Shown: one piece after another, positions 22,700 to 39,597 of the stretch
Position numbering within the stretch: the stretch's first letter is position 1
Layout of the letters: the number at the start of each line of letters is the position of its first letter
Assembly (NCBI RefSeq): GCF_000963945.1
Contig: NZ_BAMW01000007.1
Span: 1-64,000 of the forward strand
Reading direction: 5' to 3'
DNA length: 64,000 nucleotides
Origin: Acetobacter indonesiensis
GTDB taxonomy: Bacteria > Pseudomonadota > Alphaproteobacteria > Acetobacterales > Acetobacteraceae
Notes under the pieces: model-generated
Databases searched by the model: none
What the model was told of the DNA's origin: nothing
What the model saw: only the letters and a program-made list of their open reading frames with translations
Translations under genes and position numbers: made by a program

Positions 22700-24346
22700 T
22701 CAAACACGCAGAACATGCACATCCACCAATGGACGCTTCTGGATCTTGCGGCCCAGAGCACGGCGCAAAGCGGTTTTAGCTGCATCCTGAAAGGACTGAT
22801 CGTCACTCCGCAGTTCATCTGGGATAACATCCAGCGCGTTTGCGAACTCTTCCCGCACCCGCACGCTTTCCAGATCATCCGGTTCAAGCAGGCCGGGGGC
22901 ACTAACCTTGGGTTCACCAATGACGAACCCTTCGTCATCAACCGCGAAGCTGGCAATCACCACACCGTTGAACAGCATCTTGCGTCGTGCAGCCAGCACT
23001 CCGCCATTCATGGGCAGCAAACGGCTACCATCCAGCGCCAGACGGCCACTGGGTGCGGTATCAATCACTTCAACCTTACCCGGTGCCAGACGCAGAATGT
23101 CACCATCTTCCAGCAGAACCGGTGCAATTCCTTTTTCCTGCGCCAGTGCGGCATGAGCCGTCAGGTGACGCCATTCACCATGCACAGGCACCGCATACTG
23201 GGGCTTAACCAGGTCATACATGGTGCTGACATCATCACCCGTGGCGTGACCAGACACATGCACAAAATGGTCTTTGTCAGTAATAACCGTCACACCACGA
23301 CGGGACAGGTTGTCCTGCACAGCCATGATGGCACGTTCGTTACCGGGGATCATACGGCTGGAATAAATGACCGTATCGCCCTCACCCAAAGAGACATTCG
23401 GATGAATATCCAGCGAGATACGGGAAAGTGCTGACCGTGGCTCACCCTGACTGCCGGTAATGATCATGACAATCTGATCATCCGGCAGATCATTTACATC
23501 CTGCTCGCTCAGGAAGGGCAGAACGCCTGATAGATAACCACATTCACGGGCGGCAACATCCAGATTACGCAGCGAACGGCCAACCAGCACAACCGTGCGG
23601 CCAGCTGCTTGTGCCGCCATGGCAATGGTTTCAACACGCGCCACGTTAGAGGCAAAGCATGTCACTGCGATGCGCCCCTTCAGACCACTGATCAGGTCCG
23701 TCATGCTCCGACGCACTTCGGCTTCAGAACGGGACTTGCCAGAGCTCATGACGTTGGTGCTGTCACACACCAGCGCCAGAACGCCTTCCTTCCCCACTTC
23801 TTCCAGACGCTTCGTGTCGGTAGGCGGCCCAACAAGCGGATCAGGGTCTAGCTTCCAGTCACCCGTATGAACCACAATGCCCGCTGGCGTGCGCAGCACA
23901 ACGGCCTGCGCTTCCGGCACGGAATGCGTTACGGGGATAAACTCAAGATCGAATGGACCAACGTCAAACCGGCCACCGCAAGGAATAACGTGGATCGGCA
24001 CCTGCTGGAGCAAACGTGCTTCACCCAGTTTGCGGCGCAGCACGGCACCTGCGAAGGGGGTTACGTAAACCGGACATTCAAGCAGAGGCCACACATGGGC
24101 CACGGCACCAATATGGTCTTCATGGGCGTGGGTAATCACCAGCCCGGCCAGTTTGTCGCGCCGTTCAGCAATGAAGGTCGGGTCTGGCACCAGAATTTCA
24201 GCTTCTGGTGTGTCGTTACCGCTAAAACCAATACCGCAATCTATCGCCAACCAGGTTTCCCCCAAGCGATAGAGATTCAAATTCATACCGATTTCGCCTG
24301 TTCCGCCCAAGGGCAGAAAGGCGAAATCGCCGTTCTGTTCTGTCAT
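22700..24346 (-). CDS. rnj: Ribonuclease J
   Basis: A 548-residue metallo-beta-lactamase/beta-CASP nuclease with 5'-exo and endonuclease activity in RNA turnover. The metal site is THAHEDHIG (72-80), with further ligands in HTGDWKLD and the beta-CASP signatures around SGHATGDD and PVHGEWRHL. The N-terminal LPLGGTGEIGMNLNLY is characteristic. The enzyme acts in the cytosol. It lies at the end of the nuo-birA-coaX-rnj run, 8 bases after coaX; a terminator follows at 22630-22654. Confidence 0.93.
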   Translation of the reverse strand: MTEQNGDFAFLPLGGTGEIGMNLNLYRLGETWLAIDCGIGFSGNDTPEAEILVPDPTFIAERRDKLAGLVITHAHEDHIGAVAHVWPLLECPVYVTPFAGAVLRRKLGEARLLQQVPIHVIPCGGRFDVGPFDLEFIPVTHSVPEAQAVVLRTPAGIVVHTGDWKLDPDPLVGPPTDTKRLEEVGKEGVLALVCDSTNVMSSGKSRSEAEVRRSMTDLISGLKGRIAVTCFASNVARVETIAMAAQAAGRTVVLVGRSLRNLDVAARECGYLSGVLPFLSEQDVNDLPDDQIVMIITGSQGEPRSALSRISLDIHPNVSLGEGDTVIYSSRMIPGNERAIMAVQDNLSRRGVTVITDKDHFVHVSGHATGDDVSTMYDLVKPQYAVPVHGEWRHLTAHAALAQEKGIAPVLLEDGDILRLAPGKVEVIDTAPSGRLALDGSRLLPMNGGVLAARRKMLFNGVVIASFAVDDEGFVIGEPKVSAPGLLEPDDLESVRVREEFANALDVIPDELRSDDQSFQDAAKTALRRALGRKIQKRPLVDVHVLRV

Positions 24347-24354
24347 TAGTAGTA

Positions 24355-25167
24355 CTATCCTTCTGTCAAAAGATCTTTTTCGATGGTGAGACGCGGCAGG
24401 GGGTTGCGCCCTGCCAATATCCGCAGCCCGTTCAGGGTCAGCATTGAATCGACATGGTCAAAGACCGTTGTTCCTTCCGAGAAGAGCGGAGCCAGACCAC
24501 CGGTAGCGAGCACTTTCATGTCCTGCCCGACTTCCTGCCTGATCCTCTCGACGATCCCCTCGATCAACCCGATATAGCCCCAGAATACCCCGGAGCGCAT
24601 AGCGGCAACCGTGTTGCGCCCAATAACGGAATCAACTGCCGGACGCCCGACACCAATACGCGGCAGTCGCGCCGCAGCCTGATGCAAGGCTTCAACAGAC
24701 AGATTGATTCCCGGCGCAATGACGCCGCCACAATAACTCCCTTCATGATCAACCACATCAAAGGTGGTTGCTGTACCAAAATCTATAACCGTTAACGGCC
24801 CACCATAAAGATGGTGCGCCGCAAGTCCATTTAAAAGGCGATCAACCCCAACTTCGTCCGGATTGTCCATTTTGATGGAAAACCCCCAATCCAGTCGGGC
24901 TGACGCCAGCAAAGGTTCAACCGCAAACCATTGTCGGCATAATGTGCGCAGATGGTAGAGTGCTGCGGGCACAACGGTGCCAATCACAGCGCCTTCAATA
25001 TCATCCGCCGAAATACCCTGCATGCGCAGCAACGCCAGCAACCATACGGCGTACTCATCTGACGTACGCTGGGCCTGCATGGTTATGCGCCACGTACCAC
25101 GCCATTTTGCGCCATCATACACGGCAAACACAACATTGGTGTTGCCTGCGTCAATGACCAGAAGCAC
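24355..25167 (-). CDS. coaX: Type III pantothenate kinase
   Basis: A 270-residue CoaX, which phosphorylates pantothenate in the first step of CoA synthesis. It has the ASKHA-fold signatures [13 protein letters not shown] (3-15) and [14 protein letters not shown] (about 126-139), plus [11 protein letters not shown]. Type III enzymes use a monovalent cation and are not feedback-inhibited by CoA. Its start overlaps the birA end by 17 bases. Confidence 0.94.
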
Positions 25168-25915
25168 TTACTGCCCCCTGTGATGCCAGCAGGATATCTC
25201 CTGTTGCGATGGTTTTCATTCCGTTTTCCGTTTCAAGCAGCAGCCGACCATCTGCGGCCAGCCCCGCAAACTGCCCCTTTTCATAAGTAGTCCCGCCGCT
25301 TACGACAAGAGGCGTGCCAACAGGATGCGCCCGTTTCAGCCATTCCTTACACAGAATACTGAATCCTTGCTCCCGCCAGACCATCAGCCAATGGGTCATC
25401 TGGGCGAGAATAGCCTCTGCCACGGCCTTGGGCTGTGGGGCCTCTCCATACCGTGCCAGATTGGCAGCCTGCCGCCCAATCGCATCGGCATTAGGGGCGT
25501 TTGCCAGATTGGCCCCCATACCGATAACCAGCCTGTCGCCTTCCCGCTCGATCAGGATACCGCCAAGTTTCTGGCCGTCTAACAAAATATCATTGGGCCA
25601 CTTGATTTGCAGGTGATGGCGCGCCGCAGGCATGGCCGCTGCCAACCCGTCAAAAAAGGCAAGTGACGCAACAAACGGCCAACCACCTAAAGCGTCCTGC
25701 CCCATCTGCTCGCCGTCGAGCAACATAGAAAGAGCAAGGCTTTGGCCGGCATCAACCCAGTTGCGGCCACGGCTGCCGCGCCCTTTGGTCTGCTGCAAAG
25801 CCAGAAGAGCCAGACCGGGGAGTTCCCCCGCTCTGGCCCGTTCAAGACAAACATCCGAGGTCGAAGTCAGTTCATCATAACATTCAAGCCGCCAAGGCGG
25901 ACAAACTGCCTTCAT
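25151..25915 (-). CDS. birA: Biotin--[acetyl-CoA-carboxylase] ligase
   Basis: A 254-residue monofunctional biotin protein ligase. The biotinyl-AMP-binding loop is GRGSRGRNW (about 47-55), and [19 protein letters not shown] (about 104-122) is the central catalytic motif with the conserved Lys. There is no N-terminal DNA-binding domain, so it is a ligase, not a biotin-operon repressor. It attaches biotin to AccB. It starts 10 bases after the nuoN stop and overlaps coaX; that position behind nuoN is typical for alphaproteobacteria. Confidence 0.94.
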
Positions 25916-25925
25916 TCCCTCTCCT

Positions 25926-27377
25926 TTAGCCAGCCAGTGCCATTGCGGCCTGCTGGGCCATTGTCATTAATGGACCAAGCACCAGAATGAAAAACACTGT
26001 TGCCAGCCCCATACCGCCAGACACAAACAGCAGGCTGGGTGCTGGACGATCCAGCCCTTCTGCGGGTGCATCAAAATACATAACCTTTACGACGCGAAGG
26101 TAATAGTATGCGCCCACAATACTGGAAACCGCCCCGACACAGACCAGCACATAAAGACCAGCCTGCCATGCCGCGGCAAACACCATGAACTTGCCAAAAA
26201 AGCCAGCAAGCGGCGGTGCTCCCACCATACTGAACATAAAGATCGCAAGGGCCGCAGCCATACCAGGATCTGTTTTGCTTAGACCGGCAAGGTCAGCAAT
26301 AGCGGTCACTTCCCGCCCCTTGCGCCGCATGGAGGCAATACCCGCAAACACACCCGCATTCATGACAAGATATGCCGCCAGATAGATCAAGGTAGCCCGC
26401 ACACCAGCAGAAGATGCCGATGCCAGCCCCATCATGGCGTACCCCATATGGCCAATGGAGGAATAAGCCATCAAACGTTTAATATCGGTCTGGGGAATGG
26501 CTGCGAACGCGCCGTACACCATTGATAGCATGGACACGGTTTCAATCAGGATCTGCCAACGGGGCGCAACCATCCCAAACGGGCCAACCATTACCCGCAA
26601 AAACAAAGCAAAGGCTGCAAATTTCGGCGCCCCCGCCATATAGGCTGTAACAGGCGTAGGGGCACCTTGGTATACATCTGGTGTCCACATATGAAACGGG
26701 ACAGCAGAGAGCTTGAAGCACAGTCCCACCACAACAAAGACAATACCGACCATAAGCCCGGCAGGGATCTCACCCCCAGCATGAATGGCTGCGATCAGAC
26801 CGCCATACTCCATCGTGCCAGCATATCCATAGACCAGTGACATGCCATACAGCAGGATGCCAGACGCCAGTGACCCCAAGACAAAATATTTTAGACCCGC
26901 TTCAGAAGATGCAACGCGATCACGCTCCAATGCGCAGAGAATGTAAATGGACAGCGATGACAACTCCAACCCGACAAATAGCGTCATCAGGTTGGCAGAC
27001 GACGCCATAATCATTGCGCCCAGTGTCGAGAAGAGCATTAGGATAGGGGTTTCAAACGGAAGCGCGTCTGATACCGTGCCCTGCTCTCTCCGATAACCAA
27101 CGGTCACCACTGTTGCCAGCAGACCACCGGCCAGCGCCAGAATTTTCATAAACCGGGCGAAGCTGTCATTCACAAACGTGCTTGCGTATCCCACGCCGTC
27201 CGGTGACAGAACGACCAGAAAACCACAGCCGATAAAGGCTGCAATAGTCAGCATAGCGCAGGGAAAAAACCCCTCCCCCCGCCGCTGTAAGACCCCCACA
27301 ACCAGAATAACCAGCCCGGAAAGCGCAAGTGCAATTTCAGGTAAAGCCAGCGTCCAGTTTACTGCACTGTCGCTCAT
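25926..27377 (-). CDS. nuoN: NADH-quinone oxidoreductase subunit N
   Basis: A 483-residue antiporter-like membrane subunit of complex I with about 14 hydrophobic helices. Key residues of the proton channel are visible: the E in FVGLELSSLS, a Lys in SEAGLKYFVLGSLASG, K/P in CFKLSAVPFHMWTPDVYQGAPTP, and IKRLMAYSSIGHMGY. It is distinguishable from NuoM by the FHMWTPDVYQGAP and SIGHMGYAM details. Its start ATG overlaps the stop of an 18-codon ORF that sits where nuoM should be. It is otherwise intact. Confidence 0.95.
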   Translation of the reverse strand: MSDSAVNWTLALPEIALALSGLVILVVGVLQRRGEGFFPCAMLTIAAFIGCGFLVVLSPDGVGYASTFVNDSFARFMKILALAGGLLATVVTVGYRREQGTVSDALPFETPILMLFSTLGAMIMASSANLMTLFVGLELSSLSIYILCALERDRVASSEAGLKYFVLGSLASGILLYGMSLVYGYAGTMEYGGLIAAIHAGGEIPAGLMVGIVFVVVGLCFKLSAVPFHMWTPDVYQGAPTPVTAYMAGAPKFAAFALFLRVMVGPFGMVAPRWQILIETVSMLSMVYGAFAAIPQTDIKRLMAYSSIGHMGYAMMGLASASSAGVRATLIYLAAYLVMNAGVFAGIASMRRKGREVTAIADLAGLSKTDPGMAAALAIFMFSMVGAPPLAGFFGKFMVFAAAWQAGLYVLVCVGAVSSIVGAYYYLRVVKVMYFDAPAEGLDRPAPSLLFVSGGMGLATVFFILVLGPLMTMAQQAAMALAG

Positions 27378-27430
27378 TGCAACGCACTCCGTTCACAAGA
27401 AATCATCATGAGGAAGAAAGTCTGCATCAT
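27374..27430 (-). pseudogene. nuoM: 18-codon ORF in the place of nuoM (possible nuoM remnant)
   Basis: The 60 bases between nuoL and nuoN hold one 18-residue reading frame, MMQTFFLMMISCERSALQ. It has a Shine-Dalgarno-like GAGGAA just before its ATG, starts 7 bases after the nuoL stop, and ends in ATGA overlapping the nuoN start. NuoM, a ~500-residue antiporter-like subunit, is normally encoded exactly here. The peptide could be the two ends of nuoM joined by an in-frame deletion, but 18 residues are too few to prove homology. Confidence 0.4.
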
Positions 27431-27437
27431 CCGTTCC

Positions 27438-29390
27438 TCACCCACACAGTGCGACAGTCAGCAAGACCACCAACCCAGCCAGCATGGTGAAGGCATAAAT
27501 TGCAATCGAGCCGGTCTGAAGTTTGACAGCCTCTGCAGCACCAGTAGCGGTTGCACGCACCAGATCACGCGGCAGCCCTTCAACGGCCCCTTCATCTCCC
27601 TCTTTCCACAGTGCACGCGCTATGGCGGCATAGGGGCGGACAAAAATAACGGTATAAATTTCGTCAAAATACCATTTGTTCAGCAGGAAGCGATAAACAG
27701 GCCCGAAAGACCGTGCCATGGATGCTGGCAATGCTGGTGACGCCACATAGAAAACATAGGCCAAGGCAATCCCGGCCAGCCCTGCGATAGAAGGCAGAAG
27801 GGCTATCAGTGCAGGAACATTTTCCAGCGTTTCCATGATGGTGTTAGCAGGCGCGTTGAAAATTGCTCCGTCCCAGAACAATTCCTGCTTTGGCCCGATA
27901 TAGAATGGCGCAAGTGCTACACCTGCCACCACAGCCCCTATTGCCAGCAGCACCAAAGGTACTGTCATGGCAGCAGGACTTTCATGTGCAGCGTCGCGCA
28001 GATGAGCATCGGCTGGTGCGCCATGAAACACCAGGAACAGCAAGCGCCAGCTATAAAAGGCCGTAATAAACGCCGTAATGGTGCCTAGCACCCAAGCATA
28101 TTGGCTCATACCGCTGCCACTGGCCCAAAGAGCGTTCAGAATGGCATCTTTTGACCAATACCCAGCAAAGGGGAACACACCAGCGAGTGCCAAGCTGCCT
28201 ATCCACATGACAGCATAAGTCAGCGGCAGCTTCTTCCATAAACCGCCCATACGGAACATGTTCTGTTCGTCATGCACGGCATGGATAACAGAGCCAGCCC
28301 CCAGAAAGAGAAGGGCTTTGAAAAATGCGTGGGTTGTCAGATGAAAAACCGACGCCTGATAAGCCCCGACCCCAACAGCGGCAAACATGTACCCAAGCTG
28401 AGAGCAGGTTGAATACGCAATCGTGCGCTTGATATCAGGCTGCACCATGCCGACAGTGGCGGCGAAGAAACACGTTGTTGCCCCAATGAAGATGACAAAC
28501 AACCGGGTCTGGGGCGCGAACTCCAACAAAGGCGACATACGCGCCATCAGAAACACACCAGCGGTGACCATGGTGGCTGCATGGATAAGCGCAGAAACCG
28601 GCGTTGGCCCTTCCATGGCATCAGGCAACCATGTGTGGAAAAAGAGCTGTGCCGACTTGCCCATAGCCCCCACAAATAGCAGGAAGCAGATGACTTCAAT
28701 CATGCTGAATGCTGTTCCGAACAGAGGGTAGTATGCCCCCAGAACCTGCGGAACAGCCGCAAAAATTTGATCATACTGCACTGTATGGAACAGCACATAA
28801 ATCAGGCCGATCCCCACAATGAAAAACAGATCAGCCACACGGTTGACGACGAACGCCTTGATAGCTGCCGCCGTAGCCGAAGGACGGTCATACCAGTAGC
28901 CAATCAGCAGATAACTGGCCAAACCAACGCCTTCCCACCCGAAGAACAATTGGATGAGATCATTGGAAGACACCAGCATGAGCATGGCGAAGGTAAAGAG
29001 TGAGAGATACGAAAAAAACCGATATGTCGGCATTGTCTCGTGGCTCATGTAGCCAAGGCTATAGCAATGCACCAACAATGAGACACACAGCACCATGGCA
29101 GTCATGGTGACTGACAGTGTATCAAACCGCAGGGTCCACGTTGCGTGAAAACCACCGGCATTGACCCAGTCAGCCAGAGCAACAGCGCGTGGAGCAAAAC
29201 CGGCGCTCCATCCACCATACAGAGCCCCTACCCCGCAAAGCGTGGCAATAGCCATACAGCCCAGAGTGATTATTTTGGCGACGGCATCGCCCATAAGACG
29301 GCCACCAAGCCCAGCCACAGCCGCCCCTGCCAGCGGCAGAAGAATGGCAACAGCAAACAGGTGAAGATCGGTCTGCATCAGTCCGCTCAT
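27438..29390 (-). CDS. nuoL: NADH-quinone oxidoreductase subunit L
   Basis: A 650-residue antiporter-like subunit at the distal end of the complex I membrane arm, full length with the C-terminal lateral helix region. Channel residues are seen in [50 protein letters not shown], and [17 protein letters not shown]. The length and the lateral-helix tail show that it is not a NuoL-NuoM fusion. Its start overlaps nuoK's stop by ATGA. Next downstream should be nuoM, which is absent. Confidence 0.95.
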
Positions 29391-29710
29391 CCCTTCATCA
29401 TCGTAACGTCTTCAACCTGGATAGACCCACGGTTACGGAAATAGACCGTGACAATGGCCAGCCCGATTGCCGCTTCTGCGGCTGCGATGGTCAACACAAA
29501 CAGCACCATGATCTGGCCCGAAAGGTCAGCATGGGCGGAAGAAAACGCGACAAAATTCAGATTGGCGGAAAGCAGGATCAGTTCCATGGACATCAAAATG
29601 ATGATGACGTTTTTCCGGTTAAGAAAAATGCCAAACACACCCAGAACCAACAAGGCTGCGCTCACAACCAGATAAGGGCCAAGCCCAATGGCGGCGATAG
29701 CGGGCGTCAT
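29387..29710 (-). CDS. nuoK: NADH-quinone oxidoreductase subunit K
   Basis: A 107-residue subunit with three membrane helices. The two conserved intramembrane Glu residues that connect the proton path are in [13 protein letters not shown] and [14 protein letters not shown]. It overlaps both nuoJ and nuoL by 4 bases, consistent with coupled translation. Confidence 0.95.
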
Positions 29711-30420
29711 GCGCCTTTCTCCCTTTCGTCTGCCTCCGTCTGCCCTCCCGATCCGTATGATCCGGGAACAGCAATTTCGTAATAGGAGTTATGGGGACGA
29801 AGGAAACCACCATTCCCCAACACATTTTCGCCAAGTGGCAGATCCACAAGCTCAAGCGTGTCTTCACGTGTGCGTGCATGCTGTTTGCTGATATTCTGGC
29901 GACGCCCCGTATTGGTTTGGCGCAACGTCAGAACGATAGCGCCGATCATGGCGACCAGCAGCACCAGACCACACGCCTGAAAAAGCAGAACATAATGCGT
30001 GTAGATCAACGTGCCCAAAGCTGCGGTATTGGTCAGCCCCGGTGCCCCGCTTAGGGGGGCCAACCCGGTATCAGGTGCCATCTTCCAGTTACCAAGCGCC
30101 ATAATCAGCTCGACAAACAGAATACCGCCTACACAAGCCCCTATCGGCGCATAACGCTGAAACCCTTCGCGCATCTGCGTGAAATCAATATCCAGCATCA
30201 TGACCACGAACAGGAACAGCACAGCCACGGCACCCACGTAGACAATGACCAGCAGCATGGCCAGAAACTCGGCCCCTGCCACCAGAAACAAGCCTGCCGC
30301 ATTAAAGAAACCAAGAATCAGAAACAGGACCGAATGCACGGGGTTACGTGCGGTAATAACCATTGTGGCGGATACAAGCAGCACCGTCGCAAACACATAA
30401 AATACAAGCTGCGGTATCAT
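29707..30420 (-). CDS. nuoJ: NADH-quinone oxidoreductase subunit J
   Basis: A 237-residue membrane subunit. Five hydrophobic helices lie in the first ~165 residues; [16 protein letters not shown] is the conserved helix 3 with the pi-bulge segment. The last ~65 residues are charged and extend beyond the core, as often seen in alphaproteobacteria. It starts 36 bases after nuoI, the largest gap within the operon apart from the nuoM region. Confidence 0.93.
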
Positions 30421-30456: not shown

Positions 30457-30945
30457 TCACCGATAAGGCGCATCAAGTTCTAACCGACGGGCAAGCAGGG
30501 CTTCCCAGCGGTCTCCGTTCGCAAGAAGCTTGTCTTTGTTATACATCAGCTCCTCGCGGGTTTCGGTCGCAAATTCGTAGTTGGGGCCTTCAACAATTGC
30601 ATCTACCGGGCAGGCTTCTTCGCACAGGCCGCAATAGATGCATTTTGTCATGTCTATGTCGTAACGCGTGGTACGGCGCGAACCGTCATCACGCTCTTCA
30701 GCCTCAATGGTTATGGCTTCAGCCGGGCATGTTGCTTCACACAATTTGCAGGCAATGCAACGTTCCTCGCCATTGGGGTAACGCCTTAACGCATGCTCAC
30801 CACGGAACCGGGGAGAAAGTGGCCCTTTCTCATACGGGTAGTTCAGCGTGACTTTTGGCTTGAACATCATGTTGAATGTGGAAGCCATACCGGCTGCCAG
30901 TTCTGTCAGCAGAAAAGACCGGAAGGTTTTTCCAAGAGCACTCAT
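30457..30945 (-). CDS. nuoI: NADH-quinone oxidoreductase subunit I
   Basis: A 162-residue protein with two 4Fe-4S ferredoxin motifs, C63-x2-C66-x2-C69-x3-C73 and C102-x2-C105-x2-C108-x3-C112 (clusters N6a and N6b), which pass electrons to NuoB. Start at 30945 is chosen because it overlaps the nuoH stop (TGATG) and is the normal N-terminus; a longer frame upstream lies inside nuoH. Confidence 0.95.
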
Positions 30946-31973
30946 CAATTGATACCTCCGGTCTGGGGCAACAGGCCTGTCGCCATAAGGAAACCTGCTG
31001 TTGCAATCATCCATATCAGGGAAAACGGCAGGAAGACTTTCCACCCAAGGCGCATCAACTGGTCATACCGATAGCGGGGGAACGTGGCGCGCACCCAGAT
31101 AAAGACAAACAGGCAAAAGAGAATTTTGAAAATCAGCCATATTGGCCCCGGCAGCCAAGTGAACGGCGCAATGCCCAGTGGCGGTAGCCATCCACCCAGG
31201 AACAGGATGCTGACCATCGCCGACATCAAAATCATGTTGGCATATTCACCAAGGAAAAACAGACCAAATGCCAAGGACGAATATTCGACAAAGAACCCGG
31301 CCACCAGTTCGCTCTCACCTTCTGGCAAGTCAAACGGCGCACGGTTGGTTTCCGCCAGTGCCGAGATAAAGAACACGATAAACATTGGGAACATGGGCAG
31401 GCAGAACCATACATGACGCTGTGCCAGCACAATGTCATTCAGGTTCAGGCTACCAACGGCCAGCAGTACTGACACAATCACCAGCCCGATGGAAACTTCG
31501 TAAGACACCATCTGCGCGGCAGACCGCAGACCACCAAGAAAGGCGTATTTTGAATTGGAGGCCCAGCCTGCAATCAGCATGCCGTAGACGCCAAGGGACG
31601 AAATGGCCAGTAGGTAAAGAATACCCACATTAATGTTCGCCACGGCGAGCCCATTACCGGTTGGGATAACCGCCCATGCCAGCATAGCGAGCGAAAACGT
31701 CAGAAACGGTGCAAACAAGAACAGGGCACGATTGGCACCCGATGGAATAACCGTTTCCTTGAAAATCATCTTGATGGCATCGGCAAAAGCCTGAAGCAGG
31801 CCGAACAGACCATTCACATTCGGCCCGCGCCGCATCTGCATGGCGGCCATGACCTTTCGCTCCATGAGCGTCAGATAAGCCACACCAATCAGCAACGGCA
31901 CCAGAACGGCCAATGTTTCCAGCACCATCAGAATAATCTGGCCAATAAGCGTATGATAAAAAAACTGCGCCAT
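30945..31973 (-). CDS. nuoH: NADH-quinone oxidoreductase subunit H
   Basis: A 342-residue membrane subunit with about eight helices, which forms the quinone chamber with NuoB and NuoD. Conserved segments are [19 protein letters not shown] (37-55), the [20 protein letters not shown] loop (about 208-227) that lines the quinone site, and the C-terminal [18 protein letters not shown]. It starts six bases after nuoG. Confidence 0.95.
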
Positions 31974-31979
31974 TAGCCT

Positions 31980-34061
31980 TTACTCCGCTGCCACTGCGTG
32001 TGCTGGGGCATAAACACGCGAACATTCCGCCATGGTCGGACTGGCCCGGCTTATAGGATTGGTCTGATAATAGTCATGAATAAGCGGACGAAACTCTCCC
32101 GAGCCGAAGTCACCCGGCACATTTGTCGGAGATCCGTCTGACAAGCGTGCAAGCCCGGCTGGTGATTTTTCAACCGTTCCGATGTGCGCAAACACCGGAT
32201 TGACCGCGGCCATACGTGCACGCAACGCTTCCAGAGTGTCGTAAGGTAACGTGTGACCTGCGACTTCTGAAAATGCGCGAAGAATACGCCAGTCTTCCTT
32301 TGCCTCGCCCGGAGGGAAGACCGCACGGAACGACCGCTGCACACGGCCGGCCGTGTTTACATACGTACCCGGCTTTTCCGTATAGGCTGCACCCGGGAGA
32401 ATAATATCTGCCCGTGCCGCTGCTGCATCCCCATGATGCCCCTGGTAAATAACGAATGTATCCGGGCCGATTTTATCGATCGGGAATTCATCTGCTCCCA
32501 GAAGCCACAGAATATCTACGCCTCCACGAAGCATGTTGGTTGCAGCCAACCCGTGTGAACCGGGGAGAAAGCCCAGATCAAGCGCACCAGCGCGGGATGC
32601 TGCTGTATGCAGAACATTGAAACCGTTCCAGCCATCATTCACAACACCAACCTGTTCAGCTAGCTGACGGCAGGCTTTGTAAACAACTTCAGCATCGTGT
32701 CGGGTCAGCGCTGCATGGCCCAGAATAATCATGGGGCGCTTTGCGTTCTTCAACGTTTCAGCAAAGGGGCTCGAACCATCAAGCAACCCCGTTAACGCAT
32801 CAGGCCCTTCCCCTAGGACCGTCACGTCATAGGTAGGGTCCGTTGGGAAACCGCCAATCGATGCTATTGGAAAACCGCCCCGCCCGGCATGGAGGAACCG
32901 CTTACGGATACGGGCATTGAGCACTGGCGCTTCATGCCGCGGGTTTGCCCCCACCAGCAGCAATGCGTCTGCATCGTCCAGTCCGACAATATCGCTATTG
33001 AAAAGATAGCCCTCGCGGGCGCTTGTGTCATACCAGGCGCCATCCTGCCGACAATCAATGTTTGATGACCCGAGGGCCACCATCAGATCTTTTAGCGCAC
33101 AGAGACTTTCGGCATCGCAGAGGTCTCCGGCAATGGCCCCGATACGGTCACCTGTCACACCATCCAGTCTGCGTGCCAAAGACACAAATGTATCCTGCCA
33201 CGATGCCGGATGCAGCTTGCCGTGTACACGCACCCACGGACGGTCCAGCCGCCGCCGCTTTAAGCCATCAACAGAAAAACGGCCTTTGTCTGACAGCCAT
33301 TCTTCATTTACCTCGTCATTGACGCGAGGCACAATCCGCATGACTTCGCCGCCACGAGCCTGCACCTGAATGTTGGTACCGACAGCATCCATGACATCAA
33401 TACTGTCGGTCTTCTTATATTCCCATGATCGGGCATGGAAGGCTGAAGGTTTGGCGGTAAGCGCACCAACCGGGCAGATATCGATCAGATTGCCAGAAAG
33501 CTCGGATGTCAGTGCTTTTTCGACATAGGTGGTGATTTCCGCATTTTCACCCCGGGACACCATTCCCAGTTCCGGCGTCCCTGCAACCTCGGTCGAAAAC
33601 CGAACACAGCGTGTGCATTGGATGCACCGCGTCATGACCGTCTTAACCAGCGGTCCCAGATTTTTATCAGTTACTGCCCGCTTATCTTCCTGATACCGCG
33701 AAATACCCGTGCCGTAACCGTAAGCCTGGTCCTGCAAATCGCATTCCCCGCCCTGATCACAGATGGGGCAATCAAGCGGATGATTGATCAACAGAAATTC
33801 CATGACCGCGCGACGCGCACGGCGCACCACTTCTGTATCCGTCAGAATTTCCATTCCTTCAGACACAGGGAAACCGCAGGATGCAACGGGTTTTGGCGCA
33901 CGCACAACCTGCACCAGGCACATGCGGCAGTTCCCTGCTACGGACAGACGTTCATGGTAGCAGAAACGCGGTATTTCTTTTCCGGCGGCTTCACACGCTT
34001 GCAGCGCAGAAGAACCCGGAGCGACATCAACCGGTGTGCCGTCAACTATTACCCTCACCAT
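31980..34061 (-). CDS. nuoG: NADH-quinone oxidoreductase subunit G
   Basis: A 693-residue hydrophilic subunit. The N-terminal 2Fe-2S site has C34, C45, C48 and C62; it is followed by the His/3-Cys 4Fe-4S site (NHPLDCPICDQGGECDLQD) and a ferredoxin motif (RCIQCTRCVRF ... DICPVGALT). The rest is the molybdopterin-oxidoreductase-like domain without cofactor. It carries electrons through N1b, N4 and N5. The cluster N7 motif is not evident. It ends six bases before nuoH. Confidence 0.94.
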   Translation of the reverse strand: MVRVIVDGTPVDVAPGSSALQACEAAGKEIPRFCYHERLSVAGNCRMCLVQVVRAPKPVASCGFPVSEGMEILTDTEVVRRARRAVMEFLLINHPLDCPICDQGGECDLQDQAYGYGTGISRYQEDKRAVTDKNLGPLVKTVMTRCIQCTRCVRFSTEVAGTPELGMVSRGENAEITTYVEKALTSELSGNLIDICPVGALTAKPSAFHARSWEYKKTDSIDVMDAVGTNIQVQARGGEVMRIVPRVNDEVNEEWLSDKGRFSVDGLKRRRLDRPWVRVHGKLHPASWQDTFVSLARRLDGVTGDRIGAIAGDLCDAESLCALKDLMVALGSSNIDCRQDGAWYDTSAREGYLFNSDIVGLDDADALLLVGANPRHEAPVLNARIRKRFLHAGRGGFPIASIGGFPTDPTYDVTVLGEGPDALTGLLDGSSPFAETLKNAKRPMIILGHAALTRHDAEVVYKACRQLAEQVGVVNDGWNGFNVLHTAASRAGALDLGFLPGSHGLAATNMLRGGVDILWLLGADEFPIDKIGPDTFVIYQGHHGDAAAARADIILPGAAYTEKPGTYVNTAGRVQRSFRAVFPPGEAKEDWRILRAFSEVAGHTLPYDTLEALRARMAAVNPVFAHIGTVEKSPAGLARLSDGSPTNVPGDFGSGEFRPLIHDYYQTNPISRASPTMAECSRVYAPAHAVAAE

Positions 34062-34066
34062 GGGCC

Positions 34067-35395
34067 TTACTCCGCTGCCACTGGGATGCCGTGCGCAGGC
34101 ACCTGCACCAAGCCAGTTGAACCAAGCGCTGCTTTATACTGGCGAATACGGGCTTCCATTTCCGGCCTGAAGTGGCGGATCAAGCCTTGAACAGGCCAAG
34201 CCGCAGCATCCCCCAGCGCGCAGATGGTATTGCCTTCCACTTGCCGGGTAACCTGTTCAAGCAGATCAATTTCATCAAGCTCGGCACGCCCCTGCACCAT
34301 GCGGTCCATCATCCGCATCATCCAGCCAGTGCCTTCGCGGCAAGGCGTGCACTGGCCGCAGCTTTCATGTTTGAAGAAACGTGAAAAACGGGCGATTGCT
34401 TCGATAATATCGGTCGATTTATCCATGACAATCATGCAGGCCGTGCCCAAACCGGACCGTTCGGCGCGTAAGCTGTCATAATCCATCAGCACGGTTTCGC
34501 AGATTGACTTTGGCAACACAGGAACAGAACAGCCACCGGGAATAACGGCCAGCAGATTATCCCACCCCCCGCGCACACCGCCGCCGTGTTTTTCGATAAT
34601 TTCCTTCAGCGGAACGCCAAGCTCTTCTTCAAAAACACAAGGCGTATTCACGTGACCTGAAATAGCCATCAGTTTGCTGCCGGTATTATTGGGACGCCCC
34701 AAACCAGCAAACCATGCCCCACCACGCCGCATAATTGTAGATGCGACAGAAATACTTTCGACATTGTTTACAGTGGTTGGACAACCATAAAGCCCTACAC
34801 CAGCCGGAAAAGGCGGCTTCATGCGTGGCTGGCCTTTTTTGCCTTCAAGGCTTTCAAGCAGGGCTGTTTCCTCGCCACAGATGTAAGCCCCTGCACCACG
34901 ATGGATGTAGAAATCGAAATCCCAGCCGCTACCAGACGCATTTTTGCCAATCAGGCCAGCTTCATAAGCTTCATCAACTGCATACTGAAGATGCTCTGCT
35001 TCACGAAAAAATTCGCCGCGGATATAAATATAAGCCGCATGTGCCCCCATTGCGAATGACGCAATCAACGCACTTTCAATCAGCTTGTGCGGCTCGTGCC
35101 GCATGACTTCACGGTCTTTACATGTGCCTGGTTCTGACTCATCCCCATTGATCACCAGATAATGGGGACGCCCATCTGACTGCTTGGGCATGAAAGACCA
35201 TTTCAGCCCTGTCGGGAAGCCAGCCCCGCCACGCCCGCGCAGACCGGACGCTTTCATTTCAGCGACAACAGCATCCCGCCCTTTGGCTAGAATATCAGCC
35301 GTATTATCCCAGTCACCGCGTCTACGGGCACCGGCCAGCTTCCAGTCGTCCTGACCATACAGATTAGTGAAGATCCGGTCTTTGTCCTGCAACAT
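34067..35395 (-). CDS. nuoF: NADH-quinone oxidoreductase subunit F
   Basis: A 442-residue subunit that oxidises [14 protein letters not shown] (54-63) is the NADH-binding loop, [19 protein letters not shown] the FMN-binding region, and [12 protein letters not shown] (near residue 355) with a later Cys in [10 protein letters not shown] holds 4Fe-4S cluster N3. It lies between nuoE (11 bases) and nuoG (5 bases). Confidence 0.96.
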
Positions 35396-35406: not shown

Positions 35407-36048
35407 CTATTGGTTTTCAGACGCCGCTTCCGGCGTTTCAAGCAATGTCTTGCGTCCACCTTCCGGTGCGGAGCCACAGCGATTAGTCACAGGGCCTGCC
35501 GCAGGGCGTTCGTCCGTCCGTAACGCAGCGATGAGTGCCTCCGTGCTGGGGCCATCCATATCTTCATAAAAATCGTCATCGACCTGAAGAATAGGGGCAT
35601 TGGCGCAGGCACCCAGACATTCAACCTGCGTCAGCGTAAACAAGCCATCTTCACTGGTTTCACCAACATTGTTGATACCAGTAGCTTTTTTGCAAGCCTG
35701 CACAACAGCATCTGAACCACGCAACCAGCATGAAGTCGTAGTGCAGACCTGAAGGTGATACCGCCCTATGGGGCGTGTATTATACATGGTGTAAAAAGAC
35801 GCGACCTCATACACACGGATGGGCGCCATATCCAGACGTTTGGCAATTTCGTCCATCGCGACCAGAGGCACCCACGCACTCCCGGTCTCACGCCCCATCT
35901 GCCGTTGGGCGATGTAAAGTATGGGCATGACAGCACTGGCTTTTCGTGCTTCCGGGTATTTCTTCAGAACTTTTACAATTTCCGCTTCTGATTCTGCATC
36001 AAACGTAAATTGTTCCGGCTGCTCTGCCGGTTTCCATGGGGTGTTCAA
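35407..36048 (-). CDS. nuoE: NADH-quinone oxidoreductase subunit E
   Basis: A 213-residue thioredoxin-fold subunit. The 2Fe-2S cluster N1a ligands are C102, C107, C144 and C148. The core ends near residue 180; the last ~35 residues are a polar, proline- and glycine-containing tail. Its start overlaps the nuoD stop by ATGA. Confidence 0.95.
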
Positions 36049-37328
36049 CGATCCACCTCCCCAAACACAAGATCAAGCGAGCCGATAACCGCCACCATGT
36101 CGGCCAGCATGGCGCGACGGGACAGTTCATCAATAGCCTGCAAATGCGAGAAGCCCGTAGGCCTTATCTTGCAGCGATAAGGTCTGTTGCTGCCATCTGC
36201 CACCAGATAGACACCAAACTCGCCCTTCGGGCTTTCAACTGCGGTATAGGTTGCTCCGGGTGGGACATGATAGCCCTCACTAAACAACTTGAAGTGATGG
36301 ATCAGCGCTTCCATGGAGCGCTTCATGTCTGCCCGGGGCGGAGGCGTGAATTTGGGGTCCTGCACCTTCACGGCACCGGGACGAATTTGTGTCAGACATT
36401 GCTCGATAATTTTCACGCTTTCCCGCATTTCTTCCATGCGAACAAGATAGCGATCGTAACAATCACCCTGACGTGTCACAGGCACTTTGAAGTCAACCTT
36501 GTGATAATTGTCATAAGGTTGACTGCGCCGCAGATCCCACGGCACACCAGATGCACGCAGACAAGGGCCGCTAAACCCCCACGCCAAAGCCTGCTCCGTT
36601 GTGAAAACACCGATACCAACCGTGCGTTGTTTCCAAATTCTGTTTCCCGTCAACAACCCTTCAAGGTCGTCAATCCATGCACGGAATTCTTTCGTCCATG
36701 CCCCAATCCGGTCTTCCAGATCAGCCGGGATATCGCGTGCAACACCACCGGGACGGAAATAATTGGCATGGAAACGGGCGCCAGAGGCTGCTTCGTAAAA
36801 CTCCAGAAGTTTCTCACGCTCTTCATATCCCCACAGGGCGGGTGTTACCGCACCGCAATCCAGCCCCATGGCTGTGATATTGAGAATATGGTTTAGAATA
36901 CGCGTTATTTCTGCAAACATGACCCGCAGCCATTTGGCGCGTTCGGGTATATCTATGCCCAGAAGTTTTTCTGTCGCCAGTGCAAACGCCTGCTCCTCAC
37001 ACATGGGAGAGACGTAATCAAGCCGGTCAAAATAGGGCAGAGCTTTGTGATAGGTTTTGTATTCTATCAGTTTTTCAGTGCCACGATGCAAAAGACCGAT
37101 ATGTGGCACAGCACGCGCCACGACCTCGCCCTCCATTTCCAGAACAAGACGCAACACACCATGCGCGGACGGATGCTGGGGACCAAAGTTCAGGGCATGA
37201 GAGTCAATTTCGACTGTCCGTCTTTCGCCATTCTGAAGCGCCTGCTCTGGCAATAGGCTTTCGGGAATATCTTTCTGAATGAAAGACTCTTCGATGGTCG
37301 ACGTATCTACCGGTTTCATGTCTGTCAT
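36045..37328 (-). CDS. nuoD: NADH-quinone oxidoreductase subunit D
   Basis: A 427-residue 49-kDa-type subunit that forms the quinone site with Nuo[24 protein letters not shown] (48-70) contains the conserved His-Pro-Ser-x-His that contacts the quinone head, and the C-terminal [29 protein letters not shown] with the terminal Arg is intact. The N-terminal ~40 residues are acidic and variable. It overlaps nuoC and nuoE by 4 bases each. Confidence 0.95.
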
Positions 37329-37987
37329 CCTCGGGTCCTCTTGATACCCTGTCTGACTTCATGTGCTTTTTCGTCACCCGGAAGCGTCAGCATGCCTTCC
37401 CATGGTGAAACGAAATCGAAATCTCGAAAATCCTGCGTTAAAGAAACGGGTTCTTTAACCACTTTCCGAAGCTCGACGTCGTAACGCACTTCCTCATAGC
37501 CGGTCAGCGGAAAGTCTTTCCGCAACGGGAACCCTTCGAACCCAATGTCGGTCAGAATACGACGCAGATCTGGTTGGCCAGAGAAAATGACCCCGTACAG
37601 GTCATAACACTCCCTCTCCCACCACGTAGCGCAAGGCCAGAGATGATGCACGGATGGAACAGGCATGTGCTCATCGGTGGTTATAATCACGCGAATGCGC
37701 TGATTATGGGAGACCGACAGCAGATTATAGACCACGTCAAATCGTTCTGCGCGGCTTGGAAAATCAACACCGCATAAATCCATAAGCTGCTCAAAACGAT
37801 AGCGTGGATCATCTCGCAGCATCTGCATTAACGGCAGAAGCTGATCCCTCACCGTTCGCACAACCAGTTCCCCTTTTTCAACAGAGGCTGACTGGATGTC
37901 AGGCAAAGAGGTTGCCAGCGTAAAAGCCATGGAACCGACCTGCCCCTGCAAGCGGTTCTGTTGCGGGTTTACTGGAAGTTCAGCCAC
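37325..37987 (-). CDS. nuoC: NADH-quinone oxidoreductase subunit C
   Basis: A 220-residue 30-kDa-type subunit of the peripheral arm. The signature [24 protein letters not shown] (about 128-151) and the following [12 protein letters not shown] are diagnostic. It is separate from NuoD, unlike the fused NuoCD of E. coli. Its start overlaps nuoB by 8 bases. Confidence 0.95.
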
Positions 37988-38543
37988 GAAGAATGGTCCC
38001 CGTGCGGCGAATTTTCTTTTGCAGCAGCATGATGCCGTAAATCAGCGCTTCTGCGGTCGGCGGGCAGCCGGGCACATAGACATCCACCGGAACAATGCGG
38101 TCGCACCCACGCACTACGGAATAGGAGTAGTGGTAATACCCGCCACCATTGGCGCAGGAGCCCATAGAAATGACCCACCGGGGCTCAGCCATCTGCTCAT
38201 ACAGGCGACGCAACACAGGGGCCATTTTATTGGTCAGTGTGCCAGCAACAATCATGACATCAGACTGCCTGGGTGACCCACGTGGAATAATACCCATCCG
38301 GTCAAGATCGTAACGCGGCATATAGGCGTGAATCATCTCGACCGCACAGCACGCCAGACCGAACGACATTGGCCACAGGCTGCCTGTACGGCCCCAGTTG
38401 ACCAGTTTATCCAGATTGGCAACAACAAAGCCCTTTTCGGCTATGGCCCCTGTAATGCCGCGCACGACGGCATCCTGCTCTGGCCCTGGTGGCAGAGCCT
38501 CACGGTTCCAGAGAACAGCATCTTCATGTGAATTTGCAGACAT
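37980..38543 (-). CDS. nuoB: NADH-quinone oxidoreductase subunit B
   Basis: A 187-residue subunit that holds the terminal 4Fe-4S cluster N2 next to the quinone site. Its ligands are C65 and C66 (LACCAVEM), C130 (GSCANGG) and C160 (VPGCPPT). ATG 38543 is chosen because AAGGGGAAAG lies just upstream and a longer frame would overlap nuoA; 13 bases separate it from nuoA. Confidence 0.96.
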
Positions 38544-38556
38544 AGGCGCTTTCCCC

Positions 38557-38922
38557 TTAATCCCAGTCCAGCGCGCCTTTGCGCCACTCGTACAGGAAGC
38601 CAATACCCAGAACGCTCAGAAAGCCCAGCATCGACAGGAACCCAAACAAGCCGATGCGGGACAGGCTGACCGCCCACGGGAACAGAAACGCGACTTCCAG
38701 ATCAAAAATAATAAAAAGGATGGCAACCAGATAAAACCGCACGTCAAAACGGCGGCGGGCGTCATCAAACGCCTCAAAGCCACATTCATAAGCCGTGGTT
38801 TTTTCTGCGTATGGTTTTTGGTGGCCGCTCAACAGTGCAATACCCAGCATAGCGGCTGCAATAGTAACCGAGAGCGCGCCAAAAATAAGGACTGGCGCGT
38901 AATCACCCAGAACAGACTGCAT
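38557..38922 (-). CDS. nuoA: NADH-quinone oxidoreductase subunit A
   Basis: A 121-residue membrane subunit with three helices. The loop [28 protein letters not shown] (about 41-68) includes the Cys exposed in the active/deactive transition of complex I. It is the first gene of the nuo operon, with AGGAG about 7 bases before its ATG. The promoter should lie in the 223 bases up to tRNA-Val; I could not identify convincing -35/-10 elements there. Confidence 0.95.
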
Positions 38923-39145: not shown

Positions 39146-39220
39146 TGGTGGGCGATGAGGGGATCGAACCCCCGGCCATCTCGGTGTAAACGAGACGCTC
39201 TACCGCTGAGCTAATCGCCC
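39146..39220 (-). tRNA. tRNA-Val (anticodon TAC)
   Basis: The - strand folds as a full cloverleaf: acceptor GGGCGAT / ATCGCCC, D-arm with GCTCAGCGGTAGAGC, anticodon stem TCTCG / CGAGA around loop TTTACAC (anticodon TAC), and T-loop TTCGATC. The discriminator A is followed by a genomically encoded CCA (39146-39148). It lies between the HU terminator and the nuo operon. Confidence 0.95.
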
Positions 39221-39312: not shown

Positions 39313-39597
39313 TTAGCTTACAGCGTCTTTCAGTGCCTTGCCCGGTTTGAAACGGACAGAGGTTGAAGCAGGAATGTCGATTTCTTCACCCGTACGCGGG
39401 TTACGACCCTTAGCCGCCTTACGCGTAGCAGTTACGAACGTACCGAACCCAACCAGACGGACTTCCTGCTTACGAGACAGAGCTTTTTCAATCGCTCCGA
39501 ATACGGCGTCGACCACTTCGCCAGCCTTCGCCTTGGGCAGGGCTGCTTCGTCGGCTACTGCCGCAACGAGTTCCTGCTTGTTAAGCGGCTTCTCCAT
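39313..39597 (-). CDS. hup: HU family DNA-binding protein
   Basis: A 94-residue histone-like nucleoid protein that bends DNA as a dimer. The N-terminal helices begin MEKPLNKQELVAAVADEA, and the DNA-binding arm carries GRNPRTGEEIDIPAS (about 67-81), the family signature; FKPGKALKDAVS closes the fold. AAAGG lies about 7 bases before the ATG. A plausible promoter is at 39673-39700 and a strong terminator follows. The gene downstream of lon is HU in many proteobacteria. Confidence 0.95.
   Translation of the reverse strand: MEKPLNKQELVAAVADEAALPKAKAGEVVDAVFGAIEKALSRKQEVRLVGFGTFVTATRKAAKGRNPRTGEEIDIPASTSVRFKPGKALKDAVS

Follow-up and report, generated by a model that had tools for sequence, protein, structure and literature searches.

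The nuo operon of Acetobacter indonesiensis encodes 13 of the 14 subunits of complex I, and an intact gene for the missing subunit, nuoM, lies on another contig of the same genome. We consider it likely that the complex draws 13 subunits from the operon and NuoM in trans, and that the displaced gene is an older second copy. The initial annotation of this DNA had observed the gap correctly, but its alarm over a defective complex, a deletion or an assembly loss was not borne out; judging from the sequences, the gap is real but harmless.

The operon comprises 13 genes on the minus strand of the window (the whole stretch of DNA analysed, 64,000 nucleotides), from nuoA to nuoN:

38557-38922, minus strand: nuoA, matched by NuoA models alone and below their cut-offs (best 111 bits versus 155)
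37980-38603, minus strand: nuoB, NCBIfam subunit model over curated cut-off
37325-37987, minus strand: nuoC, NCBIfam subunit model over curated cut-off
36045-37328, minus strand: nuoD, NCBIfam subunit model over curated cut-off
35407-36048, minus strand: nuoE, TIGR01958, 167 bits versus a cut-off of 142
34067-35395, minus strand: nuoF, NCBIfam subunit model over curated cut-off
31980-34061, minus strand: nuoG, NCBIfam subunit model over curated cut-off
30945-31973, minus strand: nuoH, NCBIfam subunit model over curated cut-off
30457-31044, minus strand: nuoI, frame as listed begins upstream; model covers residues 37-195, over cut-off
29707-30420, minus strand: nuoJ, NCBIfam subunit model over curated cut-off
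29387-29710, minus strand: nuoK, NCBIfam subunit model over curated cut-off
27438-29390, minus strand: nuoL, 650 amino acids, NF005141, 777 bits versus a cut-off of 556
27378-27437, minus strand: nuoL-nuoN junction, 60 bases, the expected site of nuoM
25926-27377, minus strand: nuoN, 483 amino acids, NF004440, 567 bits versus a cut-off of 519

This inventory agrees with the one first reported for the window, with NuoB to NuoL and NuoN recognized over curated cut-offs and NuoA by below-cut-off matches alone. The canonical alphaproteobacterial operon has the same subunits in the same order, with L, M and N in succession, whereas here M is missing: the 60 bases counted initially between nuoL and nuoN were confirmed, and no nuoM lies between the two genes (the span quoted at the time, 27374-29390, is nuoL plus the junction). 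Junctions of -1 to 63 bases occur at 17 other loci of acetic acid bacteria. In an NCBIfam profile comparison, NuoL models covered residues 11-648 of 650; because they match nearly end to end, NuoL is the ordinary protein it had been taken for and not an L-M fusion. Upstream of the operon, a tRNA-Val (tac) gene (39146-39220, minus strand) lies between an HU-type gene (39313-39597) and nuoA.

A whole-genome search for a NuoM homologue, the check by which the initial annotation had said its reading could be overturned, located nuoM on contig C167 (36166-37683), outside the window, as an intact gene of 505 codons; the possibility that NuoM is supplied from elsewhere had been among the options raised. 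The protein matched TIGR01972 at 553.3 bits against a cut-off of 263.8 (contig positions 36181-37614, model positions 1-482 of 486) and fell just under the stricter equivalog NF004499 (574 versus 585). Across the 181 contigs of this draft genome, TIGR01972 otherwise matched NuoL and NuoN only, and PF00361 had three members only, namely NuoL, NuoN and the C167 gene, which upholds the earlier statement that the window holds no NuoM. The complex I gene set is complete, with A to L and N in the window and M on C167, NuoA being the one subunit below cut-off.

Contig C167 also carries the rpoB of this genome, and nuoM is therefore chromosomal. It starts 151 bases past the stop codon of mutL (NF000953, 710 bits versus a cut-off of 693), has the orientation of mutL and faces an EamA-family transporter gene. 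Among named relatives, those in A. tropicalis and A. senegalensis come closest to the protein, at 91% identity. A terminator-like hairpin of 11 pairs lies 3' of nuoM (L001:3076-3104), although five such matches were found against 3.1 expected by chance; no sigma-70-type promoter was found around the gene, with 1.3 expected by chance. A conserved 17-base block (TCGGCGGAACGTGAACA-like) lies about 90 bases 5' of the displaced nuoM (L001, upstream of position 1486). The block, scored at 12 or more of 17 bases, is present in 43 of 65 distinct regions upstream of displaced nuoM genes, at some loci even where the neighbour is not mutL. A motif common to the nuoM and nuoA promoters was considered and rejected: the region upstream of this genome's own nuoA was at chance level (93 of 300 shuffles scored as high), and those of two relatives matched marginally (13 and 15 of 300).

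To determine how widely nuoM is separated from its operon, we compared the arrangement across the genus and beyond. NuoM scored over cut-off in all 49 genus genomes searched, and in each of the 47 with nuoN among the matches listed, nuoM was either on a different contig or 130 kb or more from nuoN (8 of the 47 have both on the same contig; of the other two genomes, G017 lacks nuoN and G030 fell outside the matches listed). Among 24 genomes compared from elsewhere in the family, all 15 examined from other acetic acid genera have nuoL and nuoN adjacent and nuoM elsewhere; the remaining nine comprise six with a canonical operon and three with a canonical operon plus a lone nuoM. The 30 best-scoring family loci (L039-L068) all have NuoM between NuoL and NuoN. 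Of 14 whole named genomes searched (13 Acetobacter or Komagataeibacter and Acetobacteraceae bacterium KSS8), 13 showed the split and the fourteenth, A. malorum DsW_057, had nuoM alone. The neighbourhood of nuoM is also widely shared: among the 48 genus genomes whose neighbourhood was read, 32 have mutL adjoining it (23/30 and 9/18; G024 was left out), as do 13 of 15 genomes of other genera, with one 2 kb off, and 21 of 25 titled loci from Acetobacter and Komagataeibacter, several of which come from genomes in the other counts.

A recent deletion or an assembly loss in this strain, two of the options raised initially, can be practically dismissed. The assembly is a draft, but the junction is interior to a 203,514-base contig, and other species, with complete as well as draft genomes, also have nuoL and nuoN adjoining without nuoM. 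Because the split is shared throughout the genus and by all 15 genomes examined from other genera, it is ancient, and the sequence comparisons date it to the common ancestor of acetic acid bacteria. The draft genome of A. malorum DsW_057 (G017; nuoM on NZ_JOPG01000005.1) was considered as a natural case of nuoM without complex I and set aside: no NuoL, NuoN or NuoF match was found in it, but neither was a match to the neighbouring stretch of the window, 22700-25900, so that a gap in the draft assembly is more probable than genuine gene loss.

Several lines of evidence suggest that the displaced NuoM functions in complex I. Three pairwise comparisons of nuoM gave dN/dS values of 0.093, 0.119 and 0.060, compared with 0.072 for nuoL, 0.066 for nuoN and 0.104 for mutL, all of them rough as dS was near or above 1. 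The displaced gene is, by these estimates, under purifying selection close to that on nuoL and nuoN, although the mutL value means that this strength of selection is not specific to complex I. All 16 displaced and all 3 lone NuoMs retain residues E144, K223, H230, H311, H337 and E396 (numbered as in the C167 NuoM). We take the pump charges of E. coli NuoM to be E144, K234, K265 and E407, the second of the pump lysines being seen in pairwise alignment only. Elsewhere, Q or R replaces K168 in 12 of the 16 displaced NuoMs, and one of the 16 retains E67; the lone NuoMs have Q in place of E124. In the alignments, then, the main pump residues are kept, though not every conserved charge.

In A. pasteurianus, the protein is also made. 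In the listed rows of a label-free proteome of A. pasteurianus (PMC10742644), NuoM is the product of gene fig_HN.1610, and ten other Nuo subunits fall within fig_HN.3342-3354. The NuoM ratios reported there (0.62, 0.33, 2.16 and 1.78) resemble those of other Nuo subunits, such as NuoN (0.93, 0.31, 2.22 and 2.12), but succinate dehydrogenase and other enzymes shift likewise, so the data speak for expression and broad co-regulation and not for assembly. As A. pasteurianus is described as having one nuo operon (PMC4596401), the NuoM detected should be the displaced one.

The phylogenetic distribution of the split operon provides a further link between it and nuoM. Eight genomes in which no complex I was found and ten with only a second nuo cluster form one group in the rpoB tree (support 100/99); the operon and the unlinked nuoM were therefore lost on the same branch, in 18 genomes, and their co-loss is a single event. 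For one of the ten, G095, the first of two NuoM matches was read. NuoM is absent from 10 of 150 family genomes, one of which, G060 with a completeness of 86%, has a match resembling NuoF that falls short of the cut-off. The second cluster is very different, with nuoM adjoining nuoL (for example, G047:C154:41489-44892). Like the window operon it encodes complex I, as described for Asaia and Gluconacetobacter (PMC4596401), but unlike it the cluster has its own nuoL, nuoM and nuoN in a row and forms a distinct branch. It is carried in addition, with its own nuoM, by 12 of the 49 genus genomes; the PF00361 search did not find it in this genome. The nuoA-nuoN set of Gluconacetobacter diazotrophicus, described as including nuoM and a fused nuoCD (PMC9368920), is taken here to be this second cluster.

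Together, these observations make it very improbable that the complex is truncated or inactive, as the initial annotation had feared, and that the displaced NuoM serves another antiporter-like machine. Beyond the physical separation of nuoM we found nothing in favour of this idea, against which stand the selection on nuoM, the retained pump residues, the shared loss, the parallel protein levels in A. pasteurianus and the lack of any PF00361 gene in the genome outside NuoL, NuoN and NuoM. Instead, the operon would yield 13 subunits of complex I, the fourteenth would be made in trans from the gene about 150 bases downstream of mutL, and the displaced NuoM would most likely sit where NuoM normally does in the membrane arm, flanked by NuoN and NuoL.

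We then asked where the displaced gene came from. In all three genomes returned for one genus, g100, which we take to be Granulibacter-like, an operon nuoM and a lone nuoM occur together (genomes of 2.69-2.74 Mb, one contig each). In a NuoM tree of 46 rows, the lone NuoMs of this genus are sister to the 16 displaced NuoMs (100/100), which form their own group without the lone copy (93/83). The lone NuoM of G147 shows 50% identity with the operon NuoM of that genome, 54% with the C167 NuoM and 61% with the NuoM of G133. At five diagnostic columns, picked as conserved in at least 90% of 25 operon and other alphaproteobacterial rows, the lone copies share four states with the displaced NuoMs and those 25 rows share none, the latter being partly built in by the choice of columns. 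Long-branch duplicates from G059 and G149, which lay outside that choice, share one and none, and the contrast with these unrelated duplicates speaks against long-branch attraction, although long branches may distort the NuoM tree.

Because the lone nuoM of the two-copy genus is sister to the displaced NuoMs, the displaced nuoM most likely descends, on this phylogeny, from an old second copy that supplanted the operon gene, and not from an operon gene that moved. An older second nuoM would have coexisted with the operon copy, a state still seen in the Granulibacter-like genus, and deletion of the operon nuoM, as the trees suggest, would have left the second copy as the sole nuoM. In topology tests on groups defined once the tree was known, a recent origin of the lone copy by duplication of the genus's own operon nuoM was rejected (AU test, p = 7.8e-5), as was a single clade of displaced, lone and g100 operon NuoMs (p = 0.0014). 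The second copy attaches beside the operon NuoMs of four other relatives (100/97). Given the rejection of the single clade, it may be an old duplication or an import from a relative of those four genomes.

Transposition of the operon nuoM itself, with g100 gaining its lone copy by transfer or regaining a full operon from a relative, is an unlikely but serious alternative. The species tree and the operon tree bear on it differently. With rpoB, g100 is sister to the acetic acid clade (91/83), which is itself firm (100/99); a smaller rpoB set left g100 unplaced, and the larger one excludes G106 and G142, as well as G182, whose rpoB is in two pieces, and G060 and G085, which had no rpoB match. In a NuoL plus NuoN tree (without G059, which lacks NuoL), g100 instead groups with Acidisphaera (96/87), as expected of a regained operon, and forcing it with the acetic acid clade was 38 log units worse and not rejected (p = 0.068). 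In the NuoM tree, too, the operon copy of g100 is separate from the displaced clade. The Acidisphaera genome has two NuoM matches of canonical score, both adjoining nuoN, and none of the displaced type. Against transposition, a simple move requires an extra transfer, and as the acetic acid NuoMs group without the g100 copy, that transfer would have to come from the stem. Moreover, of eight proteins encoded around the lone nuoM of g100, none has a match adjoining a displaced nuoM. This comparison likewise gave no support to a common site for the lone and displaced genes; a single one of the eight had a hit at another locus (L038), in a distant part of contig C167.

More tentatively, and with rather less than even confidence, we suggest that a core pump subunit was ousted by a divergent second copy, that complex I may exist in two forms in g100 and that fixation was perhaps linked to acid. 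The two-copy genus could then build two complexes differing in NuoM, and acetic acid bacteria would have fixed the newcomer form, perhaps as part of life in acid. The split is in any case a natural experiment, in which a membrane-arm subunit is encoded away from its partners and a near relative retains a living two-copy state. With it one can test whether the assembly of complex I depends on gene order and co-expression, and by what route a second copy comes to occupy a position in a large enzyme.

A separate nuoM has already been published for one species; what is new is the relative with two copies and the takeover history. A 2016 report on A. pasteurianus SKU1108 (PMC5158111) names nuoM (APT_00690) apart from the nuoA-nuoN operon, giving the split in a clause that covers three strains, and its passages on these genes do not take up the spread, the neighbour or the origin. 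As described, a nuo tree of acetic acid bacteria was built on nuoHIJKLN, without nuoM (PMC4596401), and the passages on a repressed nuo operon in Novacetimonas do not mention nuoM (PMC12405394). Full-text literature searches, which cover few subscription journals, turned up no description of a split shared across the clade or of how it arose. In acetic acid bacteria, scans based on operons will score complex I as incomplete, and one recent survey, by its described method, groups only Nuo hits within 250 bases (PMC12361115).

Lone extra nuoM genes beside a canonical operon also occur in two other Acetobacteraceae (G059:C1:993077-994525, L076; G149:C1:2218110-2219552, L108). As in g100, the extra copy lies away from a nuoM-bearing operon, but unlike the g100 lone copy it groups with its own operon copies on a long branch, which indicates a second, independent duplication of nuoM. 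Finally, one genome of the two-copy genus has a nuoN match with an in-frame TGA (G196:C1:1427453-1428673).
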